DNA from: Asticcacaulis machinosus
GTDB taxonomy: Bacteria > Pseudomonadota > Alphaproteobacteria > Caulobacterales > Caulobacteraceae
Reading direction: 5' to 3'
DNA length: 64,000 bases
Assembly: GCF_028550435.1 (NCBI RefSeq)
Contig: NZ_JAQQKV010000002.1
Coordinates: forward strand, 620,001 to 684,000
A model generated the notes under the pieces. The model was given only the letters and a program-made list of their open reading frames with translations. It was not told where the DNA came from and ran no database searches. Within the stretch, counting starts at the first letter, position 1. Every line of letters begins with the position of its first letter. This document shows, one piece after another, positions 3,585 to 12,737 of the stretch. The position numbers and the translations under genes were made by a program.

Positions 3585-4325
3585 TCAGGCCGCCACACGC
3601 GCGCGGTCGGTCACGATCTGGCGCAGGCGCATGACGGTCTGGATATCCGTAGTTTTGATATGGGACGGCACGAACCCAAGGGCAACCGCCTTCATGTCCT
3701 GAGCCGGGATGTTCACTGTGGCGGACGCATGAATGGCCCGCACACCGGTGGTGGTAATGATTTCGGCGGCATTATCCGGCGTTATGCCGCTGCCCGCCAT
3801 GACCTCAATGCGCCCTGCGGCACGCTCAACCATAGCCGAGATTACTGACTGACCATCAACGGCGGATACGCCACCGCCGGAGGTCAGGATCGAGTTAAAG
3901 CCCAACTCCACAGCTATATCAACCGCCGCCACCGGATCAGGTGTCAGGTCTATGGCACGGTGAAGGGCGATCTCCAGCCCGCTGGCATGATGACGCAGTT
4001 GCATCAGGGTGGCTTCATCCAGATGGCCATCAGGCCGGTTGGCCCCAATCACAATGCCAGCCAGACCCGCCTGATGTACCGCATCAATGTCGCGCCGCAT
4101 GGCATCAAGATCATGGCGCCCGTAAACGAAATCACCGGCGCGGGGACGGATCATAGCCCGTGTCGGCACGGGGCTCAGACGGGCCAGTTCGATAAGCCCC
4201 GGCGACGGGGTCAACCCGCCCACACCCAGAGCCAGACACAGCTCTATCCGGTCAGCACCACCTTCGACCGCCGCTATAAATCCGGCGGGGCTATCGACAC
4301 AGATTTCGAGCCGGATCGTCGTCAT
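3585..4325 (-). CDS. cutC: CutC family TIM-barrel protein
   Basis: 246 residues, typical for CutC. The N-terminal LEICVDSPAGFIAAVEGGAD and the following RIELC are the family hallmark. Further family segments are TRAMIRPRAGDFVY (about residue 55) and LTSGGGVSAVDG (about 145). CutC was named for copper homeostasis in Escherichia coli, but its biochemical activity is poorly defined. Here it lies in the middle of the GlcNAc operon: its ATG overlaps the stop of the upstream BadF-type kinase by four bases. This argues for a role tied to amino-sugar metabolism rather than to copper. That link is inference from position. Confidence 0.92.
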   Translation of the reverse strand: MTTIRLEICVDSPAGFIAAVEGGADRIELCLALGVGGLTPSPGLIELARLSPVPTRAMIRPRAGDFVYGRHDLDAMRRDIDAVHQAGLAGIVIGANRPDGHLDEATLMQLRHHASGLEIALHRAIDLTPDPVAAVDIAVELGFNSILTSGGGVSAVDGQSVISAMVERAAGRIEVMAGSGITPDNAAEIITTTGVRAIHASATVNIPAQDMKAVALGFVPSHIKTTDIQTVMRLRQIVTDRARVAA

Positions 4326-5242
4326 GACATCACCGCCTCAACAGCCATGCCGTTGGATGCGCCGTGGGCCAGCAGGATCGCCCCTTCGATGGCATCATGT
4401 TCCGGCACCGCTAAAACTGACCGCGTCCAGGGTGCCAGCCACGGTGTCAGGACATCAGCCATACCCCCGACCAGACAGATTTGCGGCGCCCCCAACTCAT
4501 TCAGACGTGCCAGATATTTGCCCAGATCCTGCGCGGCGCGCTCAACTATGCCGACCGCAATCAGATCGCCATCCGCCGCATGGGACATGATCATAGGGGC
4601 CAGCGTTCCGTAATCGCCGGGGCGGGCACTGGTCACCCATTTGACGACATCCGACGGATGGCCCCCAAAATGCGCCATGACCGCGCGGGTAAAGGCGGTG
4701 TGCGGGGCCAGCCCGTCAAAGCCATGCAGGGCCGCGCGGATCGCTTCGCGCCCCAGCACTGCTGCCGAGGCATCGTCATTGACCTCAAAGCCCCAGCCGC
4801 CGACCGCATACCCCCTGCCCCCAACCCAGGCATAGCCCGCCGAACCGGTACCAGTGATCATGATCGCGCCATCACGGCCCGAAAACGCGCCAAGGCAGGC
4901 GGCATGGGCATCGGTCGCCGCATTCGCAAAGGCAAACCGCGGGCCCGCCGCGATGGTGCGCTCACAGTCCGCCGCTGTCGTAATCCCCGCCAGGCCCAGA
5001 CCAATACTGGTGTCACTGAAAATGGCGCGTGTCAGGTGAGCCTGCGCCAAGGCCCCGTCGATGGCATCCAGAATATGCGTCCAGATCAGATCCAGCCCCA
5101 GCCGGATATTGGCCGATCCACCAACCCCTTCGCCCAAGAGCGGCCCGTCACCGGTCACGCCTGATGCAGAGGCTGCGCGCAAACGGGCCCGGCACTTGGT
5201 GCCGCCACCATCAATGCCAATATAGAATGTAGTCGGCTTCAT
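4322..5242 (-). CDS. BadF/BadG/BcrA/BcrD-type N-acetylglucosamine kinase
   Basis: 306 residues of the ASKHA fold. The phosphate-binding loop GIDGGGTKCRARL is at the N-terminus, MITGTGSAGYAW forms the second phosphate motif (about residue 128), and a GGWGFEVNDDASAAVLGREA segment matches the BadF family GlcNAc/glucosamine kinases. It probably phosphorylates cytoplasmic GlcNAc to GlcNAc-6-phosphate, supplying NagA. Its start overlaps the stop of the nagP-like transporter gene by four bases, and its own stop overlaps the cutC start, so the operon is translated as a coupled chain. Whether the true substrate is GlcNAc or glucosamine is not visible in the sequence. Confidence 0.88.
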   Translation of the reverse strand: MKPTTFYIGIDGGGTKCRARLRAASASGVTGDGPLLGEGVGGSANIRLGLDLIWTHILDAIDGALAQAHLTRAIFSDTSIGLGLAGITTAADCERTIAAGPRFAFANAATDAHAACLGAFSGRDGAIMITGTGSAGYAWVGGRGYAVGGWGFEVNDDASAAVLGREAIRAALHGFDGLAPHTAFTRAVMAHFGGHPSDVVKWVTSARPGDYGTLAPMIMSHAADGDLIAVGIVERAAQDLGKYLARLNELGAPQICLVGGMADVLTPWLAPWTRSVLAVPEHDAIEGAILLAHGASNGMAVEAVMS

Positions 5243-6543
5243 TGTCCGGCGACCTTTCGGGTGCCTGCTTTTGAACCTATGATAGCAAAGAACAGTATAT
5301 AGAGATAGGCTGGAACCATTAACGCCAGAAAGACCAACTGAAAGTCATAGGTTTCTTTGAGCACTACAAAGGCCTGCGGTATTATAGCGCCGCCACAGAT
5401 ACCCATAATCATGATCGCCGAGCCGGTTTCGGTGTGACGACCCAGCCCGCGGATCGCCAACGGGAAAATCGCCGGCCACATCATGGCATTAGCAAAACCA
5501 AGCGCTGCCACAAAACCCACCGACACATAATCGCGTGTGAAATAGGCTCCGATGACAAAGGCCACACCCAGCATAGCGGAAAAACCCAGATAGCGCTCCT
5601 GAGAGGCAAATTTCGGAATAACAATCAAGCCGACAATATAGCCCACCAACATGCCAACCAGCGTGAACGATGTGAAATAGGCCGTCTGCTCGATCGGCAA
5701 ACCAAAGGCGTGGCCATAGGTGCCAATAGCGTCTCCCGCCATGACCTCCACACCGACATAAAGGAACAGACACACCACGCCAAGCCACAGATGCGGATAG
5801 GAAAACAGGCTTTTGCCGCCATTGGCACCGGAGTCTGCCACCTTCGATTCGCCCTTGATTTCCGGCAAAGGCGACTTGAGCACAAACAGAGCCAGCAAGG
5901 CCAGAAACCCGGCCATGGCCAGATAGGGGTATTGAATCTTCGCGGCAAACGCATTCAGAAGGGCGTCTTTGGCCTCTGGCGTCGTGGCGGCGGCCACCTG
6001 CGCGTCCAGCTCTCCCACACCTTGCAGCACCAAGGCTCCGATAACGATAGGCGCCAGAATCCCGGCGAACTTGTTGAAAAAACCCATGACCGCGATGCGT
6101 TGCGCGGCACTTTCAATCGGGCCGACAATCGAAATATAGGGATTGGCCGCCGTTTGTAGCACGGCAAGCCCGGCCCCAATAATGAACAGGCCCGTCAGCG
6201 CGCCCTCAAAGATACGCATGGTCGCGAGCTGACCGAAAATCGCGGCCCCAATCGCCATGACCAGAAGCCCCAACGCCATGCCTTTTTTCATGCCGGTGCG
6301 CTTTAAGATAAACGCCGACGGCAGGGCCAGAAAGAAATAGGACATGTAGAAAACCATAGGCACCAGAAAGGCTTCGACGTCTGACAGGGTAAATGCCAGC
6401 TTGACGAAGGTAATTAACGGCCCGTTCAACCAGGTTACAAACCCGAAGATGAAGAACATGACGCCGATAATCCCGATCGTCACAAACTGGGAGGCGCCCT
6501 TAAGCGGCTGGGCCGGGACTGATGTGGTTTCCATGCGCTGCAC
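5239..6543 (-). CDS. nagP: Sugar:H+ symporter of the FucP/NagP MFS family
   Basis: 434 residues with about twelve hydrophobic segments. Family features are FGFVTWLNGPLITFVKLAF near the N-terminus, the QTAANPYISIVGP segment (about residue 130) and the MMWPAIFPLAIRGLG region in the second half. Proteins of this group take up GlcNAc (NagP) or hexoses/fucose. As the first gene of the nag operon it is most likely the inner-membrane GlcNAc permease. The longest frame begins with GTG at 6543, very close to an AAAGG; an ATG at 6534 (METTSVPAQ) is an equally good or better start. A CAATACC/GGTATTG inverted pair flanks its leader (6543-6594). Confidence 0.88.
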   Translation of the reverse strand: MQRMETTSVPAQPLKGASQFVTIGIIGVMFFIFGFVTWLNGPLITFVKLAFTLSDVEAFLVPMVFYMSYFFLALPSAFILKRTGMKKGMALGLLVMAIGAAIFGQLATMRIFEGALTGLFIIGAGLAVLQTAANPYISIVGPIESAAQRIAVMGFFNKFAGILAPIVIGALVLQGVGELDAQVAAATTPEAKDALLNAFAAKIQYPYLAMAGFLALLALFVLKSPLPEIKGESKVADSGANGGKSLFSYPHLWLGVVCLFLYVGVEVMAGDAIGTYGHAFGLPIEQTAYFTSFTLVGMLVGYIVGLIVIPKFASQERYLGFSAMLGVAFVIGAYFTRDYVSVGFVAALGFANAMMWPAIFPLAIRGLGRHTETGSAIMIMGICGGAIIPQAFVVLKETYDFQLVFLALMVPAYLYILFFAIIGSKAGTRKVAGQ

Positions 6544-6801
6544 AATACCTTTTATAAGGGCCTTTATATGACCTATTTGCCATTTTGGTATTGTTTAGTA
6601 AAATTATAAAATGATCGCCTTGTCCAGAAAAATATCAGCAACTTAAGGTGAAAGACATAATTAAGGGCGCAAAACCCTTTACAGGAGAAAATTTGTAGTG
6701 ATTTAAGCGCCTTTCATGAACCTTACACCAACTCATGGAGCCAAAACGATCAGAACGATTGGTTCTGTATTGGACATGCCATTTGAGGCCATCCACGGAA
6801 C
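6544..6801 (-). promoter_or_regulatory. Leader/promoter region of the nag operon
   Basis: 258 bases without a gene between the GntR stop and the nagP start, AT-rich compared with its surroundings. It contains an inverted pair CAATACC (6543-6549) and GGTATTG (6588-6594), and AGAAC-N5-GTTCT (6752-6766). Either could be bound by the neighbouring GntR/UTRA regulator. No convincing -35/-10 pair could be assigned by eye, so the exact promoter remains open. Confidence 0.35.
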
Positions 6802-7539
6802 CTAAATATCATTCAACTCCGCGACGACATCGTAAGCGTCACCACGATAATAGGACTGCGTAAATTCCGCCGCCCGGCCATCGCTGAGAAACCCGCGACG
6901 TTCGATAAATAAACCCGGATCTCCGGCGCGAATATTGAGTGTGTCGGCCTGATCCGCATTGAACGATATAGCGCGCAACCGTTGCAAAGCCCGAACCGGA
7001 CGATTTCCGGCCCGTTCCAGCGCTTCGTACAATGAATTATGAACCGCATCGACGGACGGCAGGCAGTAGCCGGGAATAGTTGAATATTCGAGCGCCATGG
7101 TCGCATCATCGGCATAGCGTATCCGGTGGAAACGATAAACCAGCGATCCTGGCGATAAGCCCAGTGACAGAGCTTCTTCGGGCGTCACAGCACCTGCGGA
7201 TTTAGACACCCACACACTGTGGGGTTTACGACCGCGTGAAATCATATCTTCCGAAAAGGACGACAATTTTGAAAAGCTTTTTTCGACCCGGGTCGCCACA
7301 AAAGTCCCTGCCCCCCGCCGGCGGGTCAGCAGCCCCTCAGAGACAAGACCGTCTATGGCTTTGCGCACGGTGATGCGTGAAACTTCAAAATCTTCAGCCA
7401 GATCGCGCTCCGGCGGAATGGCATCTTCGGCCAGAATAATCCGGTTTTTGATAGCCTCGCGCAGCACTTTTTGCAGTTGCAGGTAAAGTGGTGCCGGATC
7501 TTCTTTTTGCAGACGTCCGACCGCCTCAATAAACGACAT
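6802..7539 (-). CDS. GntR family (HutC/UTRA) transcriptional regulator of the nag genes
   Basis: 245 residues. An N-terminal winged helix (about 10-80) contains the RDLAEDFEVSRITVRKAIDG recognition region followed by LVSEGLLTRRRGAGTFV. A C-terminal UTRA ligand domain (about 95-240) ends in FTQSYYRGDAYDVV, the usual HutC/NagR/DasR finish. Such regulators bind amino-sugar phosphates and repress uptake and catabolism genes. It is transcribed in the same direction as, and 258 bases upstream of, nagP, so it is the probable nag repressor. A GGT-N4-ACC palindrome lies about 64 bases upstream of its start and may serve autoregulation. Confidence 0.9.
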   Translation of the reverse strand: MSFIEAVGRLQKEDPAPLYLQLQKVLREAIKNRIILAEDAIPPERDLAEDFEVSRITVRKAIDGLVSEGLLTRRRGAGTFVATRVEKSFSKLSSFSEDMISRGRKPHSVWVSKSAGAVTPEEALSLGLSPGSLVYRFHRIRYADDATMALEYSTIPGYCLPSVDAVHNSLYEALERAGNRPVRALQRLRAISFNADQADTLNIRAGDPGLFIERRGFLSDGRAAEFTQSYYRGDAYDVVAELNDI

Positions 7540-7906
7540 TAATGTGCTCCGCGGCTATGGCAGTCTTTTTGATGCTGCTGTTTTTACCACATCTATTATA
7601 TTGGTATGCACCCGTCAAACCGAAACCCCTGACGTTCGTCGTCCTTCGCTTTATAGCTTTTTATGTCTGCAGAGTTCAAAAAAAGCCTTATAATCCGGTT
7701 ACATTTACAATTATCGCCCTGTATCCCGCAAAACTCAAATCAAAACAATGTCCTGAGACATTTTATATAACGACCCTGGTTGGAACGATATTGGTACTGT
7801 TATGCCTCAAACATCTGAACCATGACATAACGCTGGGTAAAAAATTCTTTTCCAATCGCGAAATCCACGTCTAAAAGTTCATATTCATAATGATCAGGGA
7901 AGTGTT
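7540..7906. other. Divergent intergenic region, AT-rich, no gene seen
   Basis: This 367-base stretch separates the minus-strand GntR gene from the plus-strand lactonase gene. An open frame of 110 codons runs through it (7542-7874), but it has no Shine-Dalgarno sequence, atypical composition and no recognisable domain, so I treat it as non-coding. The stretch holds a candidate operator at 7603-7612 and must contain both divergent promoters. A weak AGGGAAG Shine-Dalgarno precedes the lactonase ATG at 7907. Confidence 0.5.
7603..7612. promoter_or_regulatory. Candidate GntR/UTRA operator (GGT-N4-ACC)
   Basis: The sequence TTGGTATGCACCC contains the dyad GGT-ATGC-ACC. The spacing equals that of the known DasR/YvoA operator core (GGT-CTAG-ACC) used by UTRA-domain amino-sugar regulators. 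It lies about 64 bases upstream of the GntR start, a position suited to autorepression. A single half site, TTGGTAT, recurs near nagP (6586-6592). The assignment is an inference from spacing and location. Confidence 0.35.
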
Positions 7907-9001
7907 ATGACCTTCAAATTCATCGCCACCATAGTCGCCAGCACCGCCCTCTACCTGCTGCCGGTCAGCGCACAGGGCGAGACGCAGCTTCTGACCGGCG
8001 CCTATAGCGATGGTGCGCTCAAAGGCATGAAGCTGTTGAGGTTTGATGCTGCCCGCGACGAATTCACCATCGTCAAATCATTCGAGGCCATCGAAAACGC
8101 GTCCTTTGCCCTTTACGATAGCGACAATGGCCGCGTCTATGTGACAGGTGAGGCGGATACCGGTCAGGTCGGGGCTTTTAGACTGTCCGAAGATCATCTG
8201 ACGCTAACACCGCTCGGTTATGTGTCATCTCTGGCTGGCTCACCGTGCTATCTGGCGCTCAGCCCGGACAAAAGCCGACTGGCGGTTGCTAATTATCACG
8301 GTGATATCGTGGCGGTATTTAAGATTGATGCGGCCAGTGGCGCCCTTCAGAGCAACCCAGACATTCTTAAAGGCACCGACACCACAAAGACGGGACACGC
8401 TCACTGGGTGCAATGGTCACCCGAAGGCGACAAAATCTATATGGTTGATCTGGGCCATGACGAAGTACGAGCCTATCCCTACGATGCCAAGACCGGGGCG
8501 ATCGGGGCGGCGACCAGCGCCTTTAAAACACCGGTGGGCTCTGGCCCGCGGCATATGGCCTTTTCACCGGACGGCAGATTTGCGTATGTGGTGACCGAAT
8601 ATGCCAATACTGTCATCGCTTTGAAGCGTGAAGCGGGCGGCAGCCTGAGCGAATTACAGACAATTTCCACCCTTCCTGCCGATTATAAGGACAAATCGTT
8701 CGCCGCTCATATTCAGATAAATAAGGCAGGCGACACGCTTTATATGACCAATCGCGGCCATAACAGCCTGGGCGTATTTCGCATCCAGGCCGACGGGCAG
8801 CTTAAGCCGCTTCAGACCATCTCCACAGGCGGCGACTGGCCACGCTTTTTCCTATTGCTTGAGGATGAAAAACGACTTCTGGTCGCCCACCAGAGGAGCA
8901 ACGACATCCGAACGTTCCACATCAATAATGACGGATCATTGGCCGAGACGCCTGTTAAGTTTGCCTTGCCCAAACCGGTGATGATCCTGCCGTTGAAATA
9001 G
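7907..9001 (+). CDS. Exported lactonase-family beta-propeller protein (YbhE/Pgl-like)
   Basis: 364 residues. A signal peptide with cleavage after ...LLPVSAQG is seen at the N-terminus. The rest shows the seven-bladed propeller pattern of the lactonase/6-phosphogluconolactonase family: LALSPDKSRLAVANYHGD, GTGHAHWVQWSPEG-like and PRHMAFSPDGRFAYVVTE repeats, and a closing IRTFHINNDGSL. Cytoplasmic members hydrolyse 6-phosphogluconolactone; an exported member is more likely to act on a sugar lactone in the periplasm, with substrate unknown. The last base of its stop (9001) directly abuts the stop of the convergent gene at 9002. Confidence 0.85.
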   Translation: MTFKFIATIVASTALYLLPVSAQGETQLLTGAYSDGALKGMKLLRFDAARDEFTIVKSFEAIENASFALYDSDNGRVYVTGEADTGQVGAFRLSEDHLTLTPLGYVSSLAGSPCYLALSPDKSRLAVANYHGDIVAVFKIDAASGALQSNPDILKGTDTTKTGHAHWVQWSPEGDKIYMVDLGHDEVRAYPYDAKTGAIGAATSAFKTPVGSGPRHMAFSPDGRFAYVVTEYANTVIALKREAGGSLSELQTISTLPADYKDKSFAAHIQINKAGDTLYMTNRGHNSLGVFRIQADGQLKPLQTISTGGDWPRFFLLLEDEKRLLVAHQRSNDIRTFHINNDGSLAETPVKFALPKPVMILPLK

Positions 9002-9412
9002 TCACAGACTCAAATCTGCATCCGCCGCGCGGATTTCGTCGATGTCTTCAGGGCTGTAACCCGCGGCCACCAGACTGCTCATCAGATATCCGCGCACCGC
9101 AGGCGTTGGCTCCACCCCGTCAACGCAAATAAGAGTGATCTTACCGCCCGCATCCACCACAAAGGCGGCAATTTCAGGCAGCGCGGGCACTGGAGCCGTT
9201 TTCTGATCAGAAATTAATCGCCTGTAGGCATGGGCGACCTCTGCCTGATGGGCACTACCCGTAACGAAGCCCTTATAGAGCGCAGTTACCCGTGCCTGTC
9301 CAATCATGACTGTTTGATAACCGGTCACGCGGGTAGGTTCTTCCGCCTGAGCCGGCAAGGCCGCACCCGCTATAAGGCCTGCAACGATAATGGATTTAAA
9401 CATTCTGGACAT
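9002..9412 (-). CDS. Hypothetical exported protein
   Basis: I start it at the ATG at 9412 (MSRMFKSIIV); a TTG ten codons upstream extends the frame to 9442 but spoils the signal-peptide pattern. The N-terminus is a signal peptide ending in ALPAQA, giving a mature protein of roughly 110 residues. The mature part has an acidic C-terminus (PEDIDEIRAADADLSL) and no motif that I recognise. The protein is presumably periplasmic. No clear Shine-Dalgarno sequence precedes either start. It converges on the lactonase gene with no gap. Confidence 0.6.
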   Translation of the reverse strand: MSRMFKSIIVAGLIAGAALPAQAEEPTRVTGYQTVMIGQARVTALYKGFVTGSAHQAEVAHAYRRLISDQKTAPVPALPEIAAFVVDAGGKITLICVDGVEPTPAVRGYLMSSLVAAGYSPEDIDEIRAADADLSL

Positions 9413-9607
9413 GGCCACAACCACACTAAAAACCAAAGCCAAATGCCTTGGTATTCTGCCATATGGTTTGGCTCTGACTTTTTACCAGAGCGCCTCTCAC
9501 AGAAATGTAACCCGCACGCGCACACACAGCCAAGATGTGGCATTTATGCCTCTGCCGCAGAGTCCCACCCATAAAAACGGCTCACAAGGAAAGCGCGATT
9601 AAACGAA

Positions 9608-9966: not shown

Positions 9967-10911
9967 TTAAAACAGAGTTGACAGGCCCGTAATTTCCATC
10001 TGCCGGGCGGTCGTGCGAAACACCGGAATATCGCGCACATAGTCACTCAGCGCACCCTTATCCAAATAACCAGCACAAAAACGGTGCGCATCAAACATAT
10101 CACCGACCATGTCCAGCAAGGCCCCGGTGAGGTAAATGCCACCACGCGCACCCATGATCATGGCGACATCAGACGCCATGCCGGCCAGCCAGTCTGTAAC
10201 CAGACTAACCGCTTCCTGCGCTCTGGCGTCACCACGTCTCGCCATATTAACTATGGTCTGCGCGTCGGCACCTTGCGGATCGGCACCGTCGATGACGCCT
10301 ATGGCGCGCCAGACCTCACACAGTCCGCTCAGGGACACAGTCATTTCACGTGAGACATGACCATGACGAGCTTTTAGCGACTTCATTACGGCCCATTGAC
10401 GATCGGTCTTGACCGGCAGATCAGAATGACCACCTTCTCCCGGAAGTGCGGTCCAGCCGCCCGCGCCATCGGCCACAAGTGCTGCCAGACCCAAACCATA
10501 ATGGGGCCCAAGCACCGCAATCACCGTTTCTTCGGCATTGTCGCCGCCACAGATTTTTGAGCGCTCATTGCGCCTCAGAGACGGTATAGCCAGCGCGCGT
10601 GCGACGAAGTTATTGACCAGATTAACTCTCTGCACATCCAGAAGTTCTCTCAGCTCCGTACGCGATATCGTCAGGTTTCCATCCGGCAGGTGAATGATAC
10701 CGCCGTCTTCCCAGCCTCGCGAGGATATTGCCGCACCCTTCAGGCGTGGATTGTCTTTGCGTTTCAGGAAATCGAGGATGGCCCCATCCAGAGCATCCCG
10801 CCCTGTGCATTCATATTGCGCAGCATCCTCGGGCCGTTGCCCGGCTTCGGCCAGCGCCAGATTAACGTGCGACCCGATCGACAGATCGCACAGAAGAACC
10901 GGATCGCCCAT
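9967..10911 (-). CDS. Glucokinase (Glk)-family homologue, predicted catalytically dead
   Basis: 314 residues that align along their length with bacterial Glk. Conserved: NNFVARALAIP (residues 100-110), LGPHYGLGLAAL (134-145), LPGEGGHSDL (156-165), GHVSREMTVS and the C-terminal YVRDIPVF. Key positions differ from active Glk. The phosphate loop DxGGTNxR is replaced by DLSIGSHVN (residues 9-17). The catalytic Asp of the INDF motif is Asn101 (codon aac at 10611-10609). The second phosphate loop AGTGLG reads PHYGLG. The glucose-contact residues of the EGGH motif and Asn100 are retained. So it probably binds a sugar without phosphorylating it, perhaps as a sensor or regulatory partner. Partial activity cannot be excluded. 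Confidence 0.8.
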   Translation of the reverse strand: MGDPVLLCDLSIGSHVNLALAEAGQRPEDAAQYECTGRDALDGAILDFLKRKDNPRLKGAAISSRGWEDGGIIHLPDGNLTISRTELRELLDVQRVNLVNNFVARALAIPSLRRNERSKICGGDNAEETVIAVLGPHYGLGLAALVADGAGGWTALPGEGGHSDLPVKTDRQWAVMKSLKARHGHVSREMTVSLSGLCEVWRAIGVIDGADPQGADAQTIVNMARRGDARAQEAVSLVTDWLAGMASDVAMIMGARGGIYLTGALLDMVGDMFDAHRFCAGYLDKGALSDYVRDIPVFRTTARQMEITGLSTLF

Positions 10912-11024
10912 CTGTTACTCCTAGGTATTACTATCCCTGCACAGGCGTCTGATGCGCCCTATATCTGTGCCCGGAGTATCGGCACCAATTCATAAGAAAG
11001 AAATAACAATTATTCAGCGTCAGA

Positions 11025-12737
11025 TTATGCCGCTTTCGGTTCAGGTTTATCGCTGCCGAACGCGCCTAAGATGTGGTGAATCATACCCTTGGCCAGTTCT
11101 TCCTCACCAAAGAAGACCGTGCCGAGCTTTTCTTCACGAATGAAGTTCATCTCATCTTCACTGTGAGTGCGGATCACCAGTTTTATACCGGGATTGAGCC
11201 TTTGGGCGATCTCGCTCATCCGGCGGACATTCAGCGAATCCGGCGTGGCAATGACCAGCATGGCGGCGTGTTGAATATGGGCCTGGATCAGAACTTCGGG
11301 TTCGGTGGCATCGCCCGATACCGCAACCTTGCCCATCTGACGCAGGTCTTCGACCCGTTCGCGGTTTTGGTCAGCCACTACATAGGCGATGTTTTGGGAT
11401 TCCAGGGCATCGGCAATGCGCTTACCGACCCGGCCAAAGCCCACCAGAACCACCTGTCCCTTGAGGTATTTTTCCTCGGTCGTGGCGGGCAGTTCGGCGT
11501 AAGGGTCTTCGCGACGATCCAGCTTGCGCCCCAGATCCGAATGTTTGACGAACCAGTTTGAAAACGGCTTGATAGCCGCAAACACAAACGGATTAAGCGC
11601 GATGGAAATAATGGCACCCGCCAGCACCAGCGACATCCCTTCGGGCGGCAGCAGGTTCAGCGACATGCCAAGCCCGGCCAGAATGAATGAAAACTCTCCG
11701 ATCTGCGCCAGACTGGCCGATACGGTCAGCGCCGTCTTTAGCGGATAGCGGAAGAACAGCACCAGTCCCGCCGCGGCAATGGACTTGCCGACAACTATGA
11801 TGGCCACAACCCCGAGCACCTGCAGCGGCTGCTCCATGATGATCTTCGGATCAAACAGCATGCCGACCGAAACGAAGAACAACACCGAAAAGGCATCACG
11901 CAGTGGCAGGGTTTCTTCGGCGGCGCGGTGGCTGAATTGGGATTCGCGCATCACCATGCCCGCGAAAAAGGCTCCCAAGGCAAACGAGACCGAAAACAGT
12001 TCTGCCGCCCCGAACGCAATCCCGATCGCGACCGCCACCACCGACAAGGTAAACAGCTCACGCGATCCGGTGCGCGCTACCTGCCACAAAATCCACGGCA
12101 GGACGCGTTTTCCCACAATCAGCATCAGAGCAATGAACGCCCCGACCTGTAGCAAGGTCTGGCCGATCGTGACCCAGATTCCGGCCGAGACCGTCGCCTC
12201 CTTACCCGACAACAGGCCCGACAGAGGCGGCAACAGCACCAGCACCAGAACGGTCACCAGATCTTCGACCACCAGCCAGCCGACGGCGATCTTACCGTTC
12301 ATGGTGTCGATCAGATTACGGGCCTCCAGCGCCTTTAGAAGAACCACGGTCGAGGCACACGACAGACACAGGCCAAACACAATCGCTGGCCCCACGGCCC
12401 AGCCCCACATCATCGCCATACCGGCACCTAAGGCCGTGGCCAGCCCCATCTGCACAATGGCGCCCGGAAGGGCAATACGCCGCACCGACATCAGATCATT
12501 GAGCGAAAAGTGCAGACCCACCCCGAACATCAGCAGCATGACGCCAATCTCAGAAAGCTGCGAGGCTATACCCGCATCGGCGACAAAGCCGGGGGTTGCC
12601 GGGCCGATCAGAAAGCCCGCCACCAGATAGCCGACCAGAGCCGGCAACTTGATACGCTCGGCGATAAAGCCAAACACCAGCGCCAGCCCAAAGCCCCAGG
12701 CAATCGTCGTAATCAGCGAGATATTGTGATGGTCCAT
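11025..12737 (-). CDS. Kef/YbaL-type monovalent cation:proton antiporter (CPA2) with RCK domain
   Basis: 570 residues. Residues 1 to about 390 form a dozen or more membrane segments of the CPA2 exchanger domain, including LVGYLVAGFLIGPATPGFV and LMLLMFGVGLHFSLNDLM. A cytoplasmic Rossmann domain follows, with the nucleotide loop VVLVGFGRVGKRIADALE (about 430), typical of TrkA-N/RCK gating domains. The arrangement fits YbaL/KefC-like potassium efflux systems that respond to nucleotide or glutathione status. Reverse-strand AAAGGGCC precedes the ATG. It stands alone: the flanking genes are unrelated. Confidence 0.92.
   Translation of the reverse strand: MDHHNISLITTIAWGFGLALVFGFIAERIKLPALVGYLVAGFLIGPATPGFVADAGIASQLSEIGVMLLMFGVGLHFSLNDLMSVRRIALPGAIVQMGLATALGAGMAMMWGWAVGPAIVFGLCLSCASTVVLLKALEARNLIDTMNGKIAVGWLVVEDLVTVLVLVLLPPLSGLLSGKEATVSAGIWVTIGQTLLQVGAFIALMLIVGKRVLPWILWQVARTGSRELFTLSVVAVAIGIAFGAAELFSVSFALGAFFAGMVMRESQFSHRAAEETLPLRDAFSVLFFVSVGMLFDPKIIMEQPLQVLGVVAIIVVGKSIAAAGLVLFFRYPLKTALTVSASLAQIGEFSFILAGLGMSLNLLPPEGMSLVLAGAIISIALNPFVFAAIKPFSNWFVKHSDLGRKLDRREDPYAELPATTEEKYLKGQVVLVGFGRVGKRIADALESQNIAYVVADQNRERVEDLRQMGKVAVSGDATEPEVLIQAHIQHAAMLVIATPDSLNVRRMSEIAQRLNPGIKLVIRTHSEDEMNFIREEKLGTVFFGEEELAKGMIHHILGAFGSDKPEPKAA

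Follow-up and report, generated by a model that had tools for sequence, protein, structure and literature searches.

Positions 9967 to 10911 on the minus strand of a 64,000-nucleotide stretch of the Asticcacaulis machinosus genome (contig NZ_JAQQKV010000002.1, positions 620,001 to 684,000; hereafter the window) exhibit an ORF, P0001, which encodes a 314-aa glucokinase-like protein, a putative pseudo-glucokinase. The frame has an ATG start with AGGAG ahead of it and contains no internal stop. The glucokinase family domain (Pfam: PF02685) spans residues 13 to 312 (E-value = 2e-57, 195 bits against a gathering cut-off of 22.1), and E. coli Glk (PDB: 1q18) aligns by sequence with residues 14 to 299 (E-value = 7e-31). 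P0001 is by descent a member of the glucokinase family, as a preliminary description of this DNA had proposed. It falls under the cut-offs of all seven listed NCBIfam glucokinase models, the best score being 186.9 bits against 383 (NF001416), and reaches 140.6 bits with TIGR00749 (cut-off 225.45). No second domain was found by Pfam at E-value<=0.01, which returned PF02685 only; the N-terminal helix-turn-helix plus ROK architecture of Mlc/NagC-type repressors is accordingly absent at this threshold.

The functional residues were mapped in the numbering of E. coli Glk, and the P0001 motifs, all on the minus strand, were also read codon by codon. The phosphate-1 loop (DLSIGSHVN, residues 9-17, positions 10861 to 10887) departs from the canonical DxGGTxxR by the changes G11 to S, T13 to S and R16 to N, with Asp9 and Gly12 kept. 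The phosphate-2 loop (GPHYGLG, residues 135-141, positions 10489 to 10509; canonical GxGTGLG) has G136 changed to H and T137 to Y. Asp100 of E. coli Glk, a residue established as the catalytic base for the hexokinase fold, corresponds to Asn101 (codon AAC), the second residue of an Asn-Asn pair (residues 100-101, codons AAT AAC, positions 10609 to 10614) of which the first is the sugar-binding Asn. All four sugar residues are kept: Asn99 (Asn100 in P0001), Glu157 (Glu159) and His160 (His162), the latter two within the sugar-site motif EGGH (residues 159-162, positions 10426 to 10437), and Glu187 (Glu189) within HVSREM (residues 185-190, positions 10342 to 10359, from codons and mapping). In the latter motif Met190 stands for Arg188, one of two anion-pocket arginines changed in P0001 (R188 to M, R286 to A); His183 and Ser185 of the same pocket are kept. 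Finally, Glu68 of a GWE motif (residues 66-68, positions 10708 to 10716) takes the place of Ile67. The preliminary description had pointed out the Asn at the base position, the rewriting of both loops and the intact EGGH motif with its neighbouring Asn; the codons bear it out on each point, although it had passed over Asp9.

Thus, of the features of a functional glucokinase, P0001 lacks DxGGTxxR, GxGTG[LF]G and the catalytic Asp, and it retains the sugar residues. According to PMC13133996, the glucose contacts of Glk are Asn99, Asp100, His160 and Glu187, and its anion pocket consists of His160, His183, Ser185, Arg188 and Arg286; Asp100 is given there as a contact of the glucose O3, and the term "catalytic base" does not appear in that paper. 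Since orthologues at the same place of four other genomes share the NNF, PHYGLG and EGGH motifs, a sequencing error, the alternative raised in the preliminary description, is unlikely. The strongest part of our case is that P0001 is, with high probability given these residues, not an ATP-dependent glucokinase. With fair confidence we further read it as a pseudo-glucokinase, that is, a Glk paralogue without ATP phosphate transfer, which would have retained its overall fold along with most glucose-binding residues and would be sugar-responsive.

P0001 had been presented as one odd gene, and it turns out to belong to a multi-copy, genus-wide family. Four PF02685 matches occur in the genome of the window: P0001, a paralogue showing comparable residue changes (L002), a canonical Glk (L001), and a weak match (L004; 22.7 bits, cut-off 22.1) that reads like a ROK kinase. 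The canonical gene is flanked by the genes of a 2-keto-3-deoxy-6-phosphogluconate (KDPG) aldolase and an ILVD_EDD-type dehydratase, in an Entner-Doudoroff-like cluster. Family members were found in 25 of 25 Asticcacaulis genomes examined, at one to five places each. Every one of these genomes also has a weaker, canonical-type Glk match, and the ten such proteins inspected by motif (nine genomes) exhibit all canonical motifs. Among the matches listed for 249 Caulobacteraceae genomes (22 genera), which were ranked by score, most of the weaker ones being judged by score and not by motif, scores clearly above canonical occur only in Asticcacaulis and in one other genus, g22, with such members in at least 16 genomes, one of them a fragment. 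A match at E-value<=1e-40 is present in 107 of 385 genomes of the class Alphaproteobacteria; the 19 class loci checked by motif (L123-L141, from outside the window genome) are canonical, the check covering stronger matches. Beyond the class, a first scan of genome contigs gave no relative, and a second gave 23 loci, 22 from Asticcacaulis and one, canonical by motif, from Acidobacteriaceae. A wide spread of the family was rejected on the matches listed and the loci checked by motif. In the open-licence literature, no PF02685 pseudokinase was found among the matches listed, which is weak evidence that none is in print, and the words "pseudo", "inactive" and "Caulobacter" are absent from the text of PMC12696579.

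A phylogenetic analysis of 111 sequences (FastTree; some inner nodes are weak) places the family in a clade of 75 sequences (support 0.996), consisting of 22 from g22 and 53 from Asticcacaulis, the latter representing every family place there except short broken pieces. Outside the clade are 36 sequences: ten from Asticcacaulis, five from other Caulobacteraceae, 19 from the class, the one from Acidobacteriaceae, and E. coli Glk. The phosphate-1 pattern DxG[GA]Txx[RH] is found in none of the 74 clade members with a full N-terminus and in all 36 outside sequences; for GTG[LFV]G the counts are 1/75 and 36/36. Asp9 is kept in 70 of the 75 members, and a Glu occupies the Ile67 column in 64 of them, against none of the 36. 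Position 100 of the clade has 42 Asp, 27 Asn, four Pro and two Cys. The Asn emphasized in the preliminary description is therefore real but not defining: it is the loss of the loops that marks the clade. Of the sugar residues, N99 is kept in 75/75 members, H160 in 74/75 and E157 in 68/75. Among the 27 Asn members 22 lack Arg188, against 8 among the 42 Asp members, counts that are not independent as the sequences are related.

Fitch parsimony, with E. coli Glk as the root, gives four Asp to Asn events and one Asp to Pro event. The Asn groups are the clade of the window gene (support 0.993; 18 tips, 16 with Asn and two with a later Cys), a group of five with L002 (support 1.0), a g22 group of five (support 0.885), and L105 alone. 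On the same tree the sugar site has no change at Asn99, one at His160, two at Glu157 and four at Glu187. Because the phosphate-1 loop is rewritten in 74/74 members yet Asp is kept in 42/75, the ATP site would, by parsimony, have been lost first and Asn acquired afterwards, four times. The repeated replacement amounts to a natural replicate experiment on the purpose of the catalytic residue.

Ratios of nonsynonymous to synonymous divergence (dN/dS, Nei-Gojobori) are low throughout. They are 0.00-0.067 for six pairs among the four close P0001 orthologues, 0.066-0.077 for P0001 against those four, with dS near saturation, 0.035-0.077 for ten pairs of a group next to trpF (see below), and 0.035 for one canonical pair. 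These values support purifying selection maintaining P0001 and its orthologues, in line with the full-length, maintained frame of the preliminary description. The dS of P0001 against the same place in the four related genomes is 2.05-2.31, compared with 0.35-0.62 for ybaL, nagP, nagK and the lactonase gene and 0.68-1.03 for the GntR and SIS genes and cluster 39. Only a small gene, c24 (positions 9002 to 9442), is similarly distant (1.39-3.07). As P0001 and c24 stand far above the flanking genes (0.35-1.03), an old allele or a replacement at P0001/c24 is suggested. The P0001 leader is visibly conserved in five genomes despite the high dS of the gene.

How might such a protein work? The Glk fold is predicted by a structural model to be retained in P0001, and the protein likely binds a sugar, judging from its pocket residues. 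The kept pocket, together with a canonical-type Glk in the same genomes, suggests that sugar binding serves a further purpose apart from catalysis. The ligand would be a hexose. In the case of P0001 it may be glucose or N-acetylglucosamine, a guess based on the neighbouring N-acetylglucosamine-type locus. Sugar-bound P0001 would close as Glk does, and in its closed form it may influence another protein, such as Glk (through mixed dimers), a regulator or a transporter. Action through a partner is proposed because P0001 itself lacks a DNA-binding or signalling domain; that the sugar is reported to this partner we infer from four features: the pocket is kept, the ATP site is lost, a normal-type Glk is present and no other domain accompanies the fold. 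Asn in place of Asp may keep the sugar contacts while removing the catalytic base.

Several observations weigh against this interpretation. The structural model contains no ligand. At least one of the four sugar residues is changed in 12 of the 75 clade members (in five of them only from Glu to Asp), and four members have Pro at the base position, so sugar binding cannot be a role shared by the whole family. The idea of one partner conserved across every copy was rejected: neighbours vary between copies, and the only recurrent one, trpF-trpB, belongs to another copy than P0001. Of the pseudokinase sugar sensor put forward in the preliminary description, the lost ATP and catalytic residues and the kept sugar residues stand. 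The sensor role agrees with these but stays putative: a fused output domain is missing, partners vary and some members have changed sugar residues.

The same changed sugar residues would suit a structural or regulatory partner, for instance of Glk, whose function is independent of sugar binding. The tandem and multi-copy forms also agree with such a role, as does the dimer in the structure of an E. coli Glk variant (PMC13133996). We consider it unlikely, since N99, H160 and E157 are kept more often than expected of an unused pocket. That P0001 is still an enzyme, using another phosphate donor, substrate or reaction, with Glu68 of GWE or another residue as base, is a poor prospect, although Asp9 is widely kept, Asp100 remains in 42 of the 75 members, the Glu at the Ile67 column is specific to the clade, and P0001 retains His183 and Ser185. 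Both ATP-phosphate loops are altered and no motif was seen that could stand in for them. P0001 also lacks Arg188 and Arg286, and genes in which Asp has given way to Asn, Cys or Pro have persisted. A decaying duplicate heading for loss is highly improbable: three copies elsewhere are broken and the dS of P0001 far exceeds that of the adjacent nagK, nagP and ybaL (0.35-0.61), but dN/dS is low, the frame is open, the leader is conserved in five genomes and the family is present in all 25 Asticcacaulis genomes.

Sugar kinases have given rise to regulators both in the ROK family and among eukaryotic hexokinases. Mlc-type proteins carry a DNA-binding domain at the N-terminus, and hexokinase-like proteins of plants and fungi act without needing catalysis. 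The pseudo-glucokinase proposed here would resemble the latter in being the paralogue of an active hexokinase that has been retained for signalling, but those proteins belong to the eukaryotic hexokinase family and not to PF02685. Plant hexokinase members without phosphorylation function are mentioned in the abstract of PMC11819920. The ROK repressors Mlc (PDB: 1z6r, 3bp8) and NagC are of another family than P0001, which has no DNA-binding domain. From Glk itself (PF02685; E. coli Glk, PDB: 1sz2), P0001 differs by the absence of DxGGTxxR, the GTG loop, the catalytic Asp, Arg188 and Arg286. If the pseudo-glucokinase reading is true, a PF02685 lineage without ATP site, strongly selected and present at one to five places per genome, would be a bacterial system separating sugar binding from phosphorylation, for which the normal-type Glk of the same cell serves as a control. 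Genes of this kind are at risk of being annotated as glucokinases. A wider scenario is tentative, and we would not favour it over its negation: in Caulobacteraceae, glucokinase may have given rise to a multi-copy family that senses sugars without ATP. In it the ATP loops would have been lost first, four separate Asp to Asn changes would have fixed a state limited to binding, and copies placed next to various sugar, two-component and amino-acid loci would tune these according to the sugar bound, possibly via mixed dimers with Glk.

P0001 lies between a gene for a YbaL-type K+ efflux transporter, its upstream neighbour (positions 11025 to 12737, minus strand; NCBIfam NF007950, 643 bits, cut-off 700), and an N-acetylglucosamine-type locus (positions 4322 to 9442) composed of a NagK-like kinase, a GluP/NagP-like transporter, a GntR-UTRA regulator, a lactonase and c24. 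The sugar of this locus is a guess because the scores stay under the cut-offs of the NagK and NagP models and exceed only that of the gluP model. Conserved neighbours had been suggested as a check in the preliminary description: the order of the locus is largely kept in four genomes (L035, L036, L088, L089), with a YbaL-cluster member on the same side, and no partner is common to all family copies. Amidohydrolase and SIS genes lie further along from the locus in L036. In L035, L036 and L089, and not in the window, a TonB-dependent receptor gene and a PF04820 tryptophan-halogenase gene directly precede the P0001 orthologue (Pfam on both genes in L089, on one each in L035 and L036).

Another family copy is divergent from trpF-trpB in the gene maps of 24 genomes; in G022 a copy adjoins trpF by tblastn, bringing the trpF-locus copy to 25/25 genomes. 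Gene calls name trpA in 22 and accD in 24 of these loci, the families being checked by Pfam for L038. In six trpF-locus maps (L037-L042) two family genes stand in tandem. The copy closest to trpF is split into two frames in G016 (L097) and G022 (L012), as is the second copy of G001 (L104), with an open copy elsewhere in each of these genomes. The copies of L091-L093 are flanked by an alpha-galactosidase gene on one side and a GntR-FCD gene on the other. Receiver-domain proteins are encoded beside L052, L056 and L104, a chemotaxis receptor near L085, and PilZ-like and XRE-type genes each near some copies. A protein of 430-510 aa without Pfam match is divergent from the family gene at L052 (8524-9924), L053 (8525-9823) and L105 (5268-6803); the first two cluster together and the third is alike by eye. 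At L056 (8266-9513), an extra trpB-like gene accompanies a dispersed copy, which looks like a joint duplication of this copy and a portion of the trp locus.

Rfam at gathering thresholds identified one tRNA and nothing else in the whole window. Special hairpins in family leaders generally were not borne out: 68 family leaders have a median score of 14.0, against 13.5 for 497 other intergenic leaders; their excess over shuffles differs (p = 0.038), and their folding energy is not lower (p = 0.62). A motif picked after the leaders had been seen, the loop CRTCAGA on a perfect stem of at least 4, yields seven hairpins on both strands of the 1.16 Mb of loci analysed, where about 1.6 are expected. 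All seven sit 30-43 nt before a family gene, at three independent places; the one in L089 is assigned by its orthologous position. Their stems differ between the window (positions 10944 to 10958, minus strand), L046 (near 7569) and L095 (near 9366).
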